Shown in pieces: positions 26,245-26,652 of a stretch of DNA of 44,559 nt. The DNA lies in assembly GCA_943354505.1 (NCBI GenBank), contig CALRCE010000006.1, forward strand, positions 1-44,559, in the 5' to 3' direction. Numbering within the stretch: the first letter of the stretch is position 1; each line of letters begins with the position of its first letter. The stretch is from Candidatus Peribacteria bacterium (GTDB taxonomy: Bacteria > Patescibacteriota > Gracilibacteria > UBA1369 > 2-02-FULL-48-14). Below the pieces are notes generated by a model. That model saw only the letters and a program-made list of their open reading frames with translations. It made no database searches and was not told where the DNA came from. Both the position numbers and the translations under genes were made by a program.

Positions 26245-26273
26245 TTGACGCCGTTTGTTGTCTCTTTTACAAT
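26245..26273 (+). promoter_or_regulatory. Promoter of threonine-leader transcript
   Basis: TTGACG-N17-TACAAT; predicted TSS about 12 nt before the leader ATG. Confidence 0.75.
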
Positions 26274-26292
26274 GGCTTCGTTAAGCTTTTTT

Positions 26293-26358
26293 ATGAATCG
26301 ACTTTCTTTCGTCACCACCACAACTACCACCACCACTTCCTTGCGGAATAGGGGCTAG
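26293..26358 (+). CDS. Threonine-rich leader peptide (21 aa) of a transcription attenuator
   Basis: ATG AAT CGA CTT TCT TTC GTC ACC ACC ACA ACT ACC ACC ACC ACT TCC TTG CGG AAT AGG GGC TAG = MNRLSFVTTTTTTTTSLRNRG*; resembles the enterobacterial thrL architecture. Confidence 0.85.
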   Translation: MNRLSFVTTTTTTTTSLRNRG

Positions 26359-26413
26359 TTGCTGATGAATTCAATCTTTAACCCCTCTTCCGATCAAGGC
26401 GAGGGGTTTTTTA
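26344..26413 (+). promoter_or_regulatory. Attenuator: mutually exclusive antiterminator / terminator
   Basis: Antiterminator CGGAATAGGGG (26344-26354) x CCCCTCTTCCG (26382-26392), 10 of 11 pairs; terminator AACCCCTC (26380-26387) x GAGGGGTT (26401-26408) followed by TTTTTTAATTT. Confidence 0.8.
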
Positions 26414-26436
26414 ATTTAAAATTAACAACACTTTTT

Positions 26437-26652
26437 ATGACAAACATTTCACAGGAAGGCCCAAATGGATCCAGTCTTGATGAGCGTGCTTCGCTCGATG
26501 CCTTGCCTCACCAGGCTTTGGCTCCTCAGCTAGGAAGAAGTCCAGAGTTGATATCCGGTCGTGTTCATGGCGTGAGGGGTGGCGTCAAAAAAAGAGTTTT
26601 GGATCGATTTTACGATAACCCCTGTAATACTCCTCGAGGAGTGTTCCTCTGA
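26437..26652 (+). CDS. Small hypothetical protein downstream of the Thr attenuator (71 aa)
   Basis: MTNISQEGPNGSSLDERASLDALPHQALAPQLGRSPELISGRVHGVRGGVKKRVLDRFYDNPCNTPRGVFL*; the longer track start at 26359 lies upstream of the terminator. Confidence 0.5.
   Translation: MTNISQEGPNGSSLDERASLDALPHQALAPQLGRSPELISGRVHGVRGGVKKRVLDRFYDNPCNTPRGVFL

Follow-up and report, generated by a model that had tools for sequence, protein, structure and literature searches.

Which gene is controlled by a short open reading frame with eight consecutive threonine codons standing directly before an intrinsic terminator, and does such an arrangement act as an attenuator at all? The locus lies in the window (the whole stretch of 44,559 nt that was analysed), which is contig C6 of a genome of 1.156 Mb in 43 contigs with a completeness of 97.7%. 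The original prediction had placed here a promoter, a 21-codon ORF with eight Thr codons, two pairing arms and a terminator, and all of them were found at the predicted positions; the predicted terminator end at 26412 takes in the U tract, while the stem-loop itself ends at 26408. The features are listed below, L026 being a related metagenome contig.

24833-26223, forward strand: ECF sigma / DUF5667 operon, the 5' neighbour of the leader locus
26234-26244, forward strand: GGTACACTTGT, weakly matching the family promoter element, just 5' of the window promoter
26245-26273, forward strand: sigma-70-like promoter TTGACG-17-TACAAT, conserved at 26/29 positions in L026
26293-26358, forward strand: leader ORF MNRLSFVTTTTTTTTSLRNRG of 21 codons with the eight Thr codons at 26314-26337; counterpart MNQLSFVTTTTTTTSLRNRG in L026
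26344-26354, forward strand: antiterminator 5' arm CGGAATAGGGG, identical in L026
26359-26379, forward strand: 21-nt spacer from leader stop to terminator, 21/21 identical in L026
26380-26416, forward strand: intrinsic terminator, made up of the stem-loop 26380-26408 and a U tract; 26382-26392 doubles as the antiterminator 3' arm
26437-26652, forward strand: 71-aa ORF directly 3' of the terminator, for which relatives were not found
26676-26852, forward strand: gene for a 58-aa helix-turn-helix (HTH) protein, the proposed attenuator target, a short form of a putative Zn-ribbon plus HTH family
26836-27384, reverse strand: DUF520 (YajQ-type) gene, convergent with the HTH gene
39870-39976, reverse strand: aro operon leader MAHTFFFNSFYYFAPQRGL with terminator/antiterminator, 5' of the EPSP synthase gene

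The promoter matches the consensus at 10 of 12 positions (-35 box TTGACG at 26245-26250, 17-nt spacer, -10 box TACAAT at 26268-26273). Other frames of the Thr repeat can be read as His-rich or Pro-rich, but a suitably placed ATG together with a stop codon exists in the Thr frame only. Judged by its sequence the leader would qualify as a short ORF with control codons, and a terminator lies between it and the gene. The arm CGGAATAGGGG (26344-26354) pairs with CCCCTCTTCCG (26382-26392) in 10 of 11 positions; the duplex of the antiterminator 5' arm with its own terminator 5' arm reaches -17.4 kcal/mol and beats the pairing with the terminators of 21 other loci, and the terminator AACCCCTC...GAGGGGTT (26380-26408) is calculated at -14.9 kcal/mol. 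The ribosome was represented in a partition-function model by letting free RNA begin 12 nt past the first base of the A-site codon (an assumed footprint), with the mean terminator pair probability as the value. The window terminator helix then has a probability of 0.95 without a ribosome. When Val7 or one of Thr1-Thr5 occupies the A site the value falls to 0.00-0.02; it amounts to 0.70-0.76 for Thr6-Thr7 and is back at 0.96 for Thr8 and all later codons up to the stop. The two exclusive RNA states that had been predicted are reproduced by this model, according to which an exclusive antiterminator would form only with a ribosome waiting at the control codons.

Given enough Thr-tRNA, the ribosome would reach the stop codon and cover CGGAATAGGGG, the terminator 26380-26408 would form and transcription would end before the HTH gene. 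With Thr-tRNA in short supply it would wait at Thr1-Thr5 and leave CGGAATAGGGG exposed, which could pair with CCCCTCTTCCG, so that no terminator forms and the HTH gene is transcribed. The HTH protein would then bind the family promoter element and, in the window genome, probably act on thrS. From sequence and folding model we consider it likely that ribosome-mediated transcription attenuation switches on a small, putatively DNA-binding regulator when charged tRNA-Thr is scarce. This reading is based on sequence and computation, namely the elements themselves, their conservation in L026, the position-dependent switch and the same arrangement at homologous HTH genes. The aro leader has the same two-state design, as had been predicted, and is a plausible Phe/Tyr attenuator; in the same model its terminator probability does not exceed 0.03 until the second Tyr has been passed, and is 0.89-1.00 from there on.

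To look at the conservation of the locus we used L026, a contig from a Hainich groundwater metagenome (ERZ1292633.48351; length 2449 nt according to its name, 1501 nt compared), the sole metagenome contig in which a relative of the DUF5667 protein turned up (70% aa identity); a search of genome contigs with the DUF5667 protein and with the HTH alignment gave no match. The original prediction had named the Thr run and the competing arms as what relatives should keep, and L026 does keep them with one Thr codon fewer: its leader MNQLSFVTTTTTTTSLRNRG has lost this codon by an in-frame deletion and both antiterminator arms are identical. The leader ORF is identical at 60/66 positions, with three of the six differences due to that single deletion, and the figures for the other elements are 26/29 (promoter), 21/21 (spacer) and 18/21 (first part of the terminator). 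Identities across the locus elements range from 86 to 100%, compared with 78% (nt) for the adjacent gene and 86% for the sigma gene. The 58-aa HTH homologue P0004 is listed on a contig of 2449 nt, the length given in the L026 record name, and therefore the HTH gene probably follows the leader there too, with conserved gene order. For the remainder of L026 the model would predict a terminator 3' arm GAGGGGCT, compensating for AGCCCCTC, with a U tract behind it and the gene of the 58-aa HTH protein further on.

Short ATG ORFs with a residue run of at least five occur 32 times in the 1.156-Mb genome, and two of them are followed by a terminator, the window leader and an ORF with T6 in contig C39, which was rejected as it is the C-terminal end of a long gene. 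A scan for structure only, which asked for a short ORF whose stop codon lies 12-45 nt upstream of a terminator and for a leader-terminator duplex of -14 kcal/mol or lower, returned four matches in the whole genome. These are the Thr and aro leaders and two places in contig C10, and we read one of the latter as rRNA sequence. Because of the L026 conservation, the rarity of ORFs combining run and terminator and the four-match scan, the leader-terminator arrangement of the window is far beyond chance. The Thr leader and the aro leader are the only plausible attenuators in this genome-wide scan, and for this reason the earlier suggestion of a general regulatory mechanism of this organism was too strong; for the lineage it does not go far enough, since a whole family of HTH regulators there uses the same design.

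This family was collected with a profile, which identified 23 loci in 19 of the 361 genomes of the class; outside the class, a 388-genome sample of the phylum added one distant match. A terminator precedes the gene in all 23 loci (weak in G039, 171 nt away in G055, set by hand in G037), and in 22 of the 23 a short ORF with a matched antiterminator ends 17-34 nt before it. The leaders can be sorted by their control codons:

Thr (5): the window; G020:C28 TTTTTTT; G050:C50 STKTTTT; G220 TTTTTT; G031 TITTT
Met, with MMM (8): G020:C18, G012, G070:C13, G049, G354, G058, G241, G030
Val/Ile/Leu (8): G001:C1 VVVV; G001:C4 LILGLILI; G055 ALIIVAIITL; G077 TTIMLTLII; and G015, G005, G037, G050:C2
Ambiguous amino-acid class: G070:C57

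Thr-run ORFs followed by terminators, for which the original prediction had proposed to search relatives, are present at homologous HTH genes in genomes of the class. Leader ends pair with their own terminators at a mean of -20.2 kcal/mol compared with -12.1 for mismatched loci, and 0 of 20,000 permutations were as good, with the caveat that the leader ORFs were chosen by eye ahead of the automated scan and that the Met loci are not mutually independent. Applied to 20 HTH neighbourhoods containing 147 other genes, the structure-only scan gave 17 matches, 16 at HTH genes and one at a further Thr6 leader. In the folding model a ribosome at the control codons abolishes the terminator of the window, G220, G031, both G001 loci and several branched-chain loci. 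In G020:C28, G050:C50 and most Met loci the equilibrium fold with a ribosome at these codons still favours the terminator, and they would therefore need kinetic folding or a different footprint.

Some further observations concern members of the family and other loci. The N-terminus of P0003 begins with MRGFLVLKFYTM..., as if a terminator immediately 5' of the start codon were being translated. In L055 (G005:C9) the HTH gene carries an in-frame TAA inside the profile match with the leader kept, possibly a pseudogene or a sequence error. L081 (G020:C18, reverse strand) shows a Thr6 leader MYNHGMNNEIHNQFVTTTTTTNLGLR and a terminator followed by a 119-aa ORF. The ORFs 3' of the HTH genes were rejected as partner proteins, having no mutual similarity except between G058 and G354.

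What is controlled in the window itself? Threonine biosynthesis was rejected as the target, with no such genes downstream and no homoserine dehydrogenase; the latter enzyme was not found in the window genome, and the organism is therefore probably a threonine auxotroph. Terminator and HTH gene are 268 nt apart compared with 17-52 nt in most relatives, the orphan 71-aa ORF being in between. Searches of 5.8 billion proteins and of 59 genomes gave no relative of this ORF; it was rejected as the target and is probably not a conserved gene. An inserted repeat between terminator and HTH gene was likewise rejected, no second copy being present. A near-perfect palindrome around CTCCTCGAGGAG without a U tract is found at 26626-26645, just 5' of the HTH gene. 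The attenuated gene would be that of the HTH protein, which had not been part of the original prediction, and we infer that it is the main target. Full members of the family have about 100 residues with a CPN..C / C..C motif, by inspection a probable Zn ribbon, and an HTH, and the 58-aa window protein is a short form. Among Pfam and NCBIfam models none names the family beyond general HTH domains; its best PDB sequence match is 2x48, and AlphaFold predicts three helices for the 58-aa form (mean pLDDT 80), a fold that suggests DNA binding.

Neighbouring genes and promoters point to a possible regulon. In G220, thrS lies downstream of the Thr-leader HTH gene in the same direction, Met leaders adjoin genes for homocysteine S-methyltransferase (G070) and cystathionine gamma-synthase (G241), and the TTIMLTLII leader of G077 adjoins ilvC; the Met-leader HTH gene of G012 precedes leucine-type genes, an imperfect amino-acid match. 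Many HTH promoters share the element CAC-N10-TACA-N6-TTGAC, in which the -35 box is included. The exact element has 21 matches in 19 genomes (four for a reversed control pattern), mostly in HTH promoters and some inside genes. Three stand before non-HTH genes, namely thrS of the window genome and two G050 genes, one of them with its own Thr leader. At L195 (G050:C34, reverse strand) the family element, a Thr-rich leader MLKAQQQFTATTKKTTKKPSRAVA and a terminator are followed by a 163-aa frame. The element CACCTCTAATGAGTACACCCCCGTTGAC is located 76 nt before the window-genome thrS (identified by TIGR00418), and with a weight matrix it ranks first of 4615 TTG[AC]C sites in this genome, scoring 21.6 compared with 12.9 for the next site outside a gene. 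No other thrS gene among those listed scores above 2.1, and no metG gene above 4.0. The HTH promoter of the window has a weak element match only, whereas many other HTH promoters carry the element. Neither the element nor a Met leader was found at metG in 12 genomes, of which six have Met-type HTH loci; the idea that synthetases are generally controlled in this way was rejected by this result, and the synthetase link is hence limited to Thr.

The genus-mate G001 has its thrS behind a leader MHIRLNTTTTTTARRVV (Thr6) and a terminator (L213, G001:C2), G020 has a Thr5 ORF MLQIIKTTTTTAIQ directly before thrS (L200, G020:C35), and the window-genome thrS is without a leader of its own. Threonine attenuation of thrS may thus be direct in G001 and indirect, via the HTH protein, in the window genome, where the Thr member probably acts on thrS. 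As a tentative model, to which we give a little less than even credence, a lineage of small-genome bacteria would have a family of such switches: small HTH regulators each behind a one-amino-acid attenuator (Thr, Met or branched-chain) would turn specific starvation signals into action via a shared promoter element, with the Thr member driving thrS in a threonine auxotroph and replacing the direct thrS attenuator of its genus-mate.

A competing explanation differs from this model only in its last, inferred step: attenuator and HTH target are real, but the HTH protein would be an autoregulator or a mobile-element remnant without a role at thrS, whose element is coincidental or belongs to another protein. 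The resemblance of the HTH domains to those of transposases and resolvases, the sporadic distribution in 19 of 361 genomes, the absent metG link and the weak element at the protein's own promoter would all fit, although Thr genes are matched independently, by the thrS element in the window genome and by thrS in the gene run of the G220 Thr leader, and thrS in G001 and G020 has direct Thr leaders; we regard this explanation as a serious one that is somewhat improbable. It is quite unlikely that a thrL-like biosynthetic attenuator was stranded here by loss or rearrangement of a threonine operon and is now functionless, as could be imagined from the absent threonine synthesis genes and a 71-aa ORF without relatives, since the locus is strongly conserved in L026 and leaders of the family are as a rule followed by an HTH gene. 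The least likely idea, and a very improbable one, is that the hairpin merely terminates the ECF sigma / DUF5667 operon (24833-26223), which ends 156 nt upstream in the same direction, behind an ORF that is a chance simple repeat of near (ACC)n type. Against it, conservation is higher in the leader, the spacer and the antiterminator arms than in the adjacent gene, and the L026 indel leaves the frame intact. The same arrangement is also seen at homologous HTH genes that have unrelated genes upstream and Met or Ile/Leu/Val leaders without a repeat, and the one other ORF of the genome combining run and terminator is the end of a long gene.

Textbook attenuators serve biosynthetic operons; in the preferred reading, attenuation of the HTH gene, a likely auxotroph keeps one aimed at a putative DNA-binding protein. 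It would offer amino-acid-specific starvation regulation that can be tested in a lineage with few cultivated members, together with leader and antiterminator variants in a natural series, and with thrS a concrete prediction for a regulator of hitherto undescribed function. The open-access literature, with incomplete coverage, gave nothing relevant on leader-peptide attenuation in candidate-phyla bacteria. As far as the searched literature shows, three points are new: a regulator family whose leader amino acid is exchanged from locus to locus, the occurrence of this family in the lineage, and the predicted link to thrS.

How does the locus compare with known systems? The thrL leader of enterobacteria uses Thr and Ile codons. 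The likeness to thrL (Rfam RF00506, Thr_leader) that had been pointed out holds for the attenuator layout, a Thr-rich leader peptide with terminator versus antiterminator, but not for the controlled genes: thrL is followed by a threonine biosynthesis operon and the window locus is not, homoserine dehydrogenase is missing, and the RF00506 model scores 17 bits (E 0.5) on the window leader, below the cut-off of 55. No T-box or other Rfam family matched at gathering score in the window, the thrS loci or the relatives scanned. Attenuators of synthetase genes are known for pheST in gamma-proteobacteria and for trpS and leuS in Streptomyces (PMC1262725). The thrS leaders of G001 and G020 are similar in having a leader peptide of the cognate amino acid before the synthetase, whereas the window leader stands before a regulator whose family element occurs at thrS and the synthetase itself is leaderless. 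The closest analogue is mycobacterial WhiB7. In actinobacteria the gene of WhiB7/WblC lies behind a uORF and an intrinsic terminator, ribosome stalling frees an antiterminator of overlapping uORF/terminator sequence, the protein binds to the region upstream of this uORF, and alanine starvation and tRNA synthetase genes have been linked to its regulon (PMC10727445). A uORF and a terminator before the gene of a regulator that by its fold may bind DNA are also present in the window. Different from WhiB7, which is a WhiB-family protein induced mainly by antibiotics, is the HTH protein, usually with a putative Zn ribbon (no WhiB domain was found in it, Pfam giving HTH domains only), and different as well is that homologous loci here bear leaders for different single amino acids.
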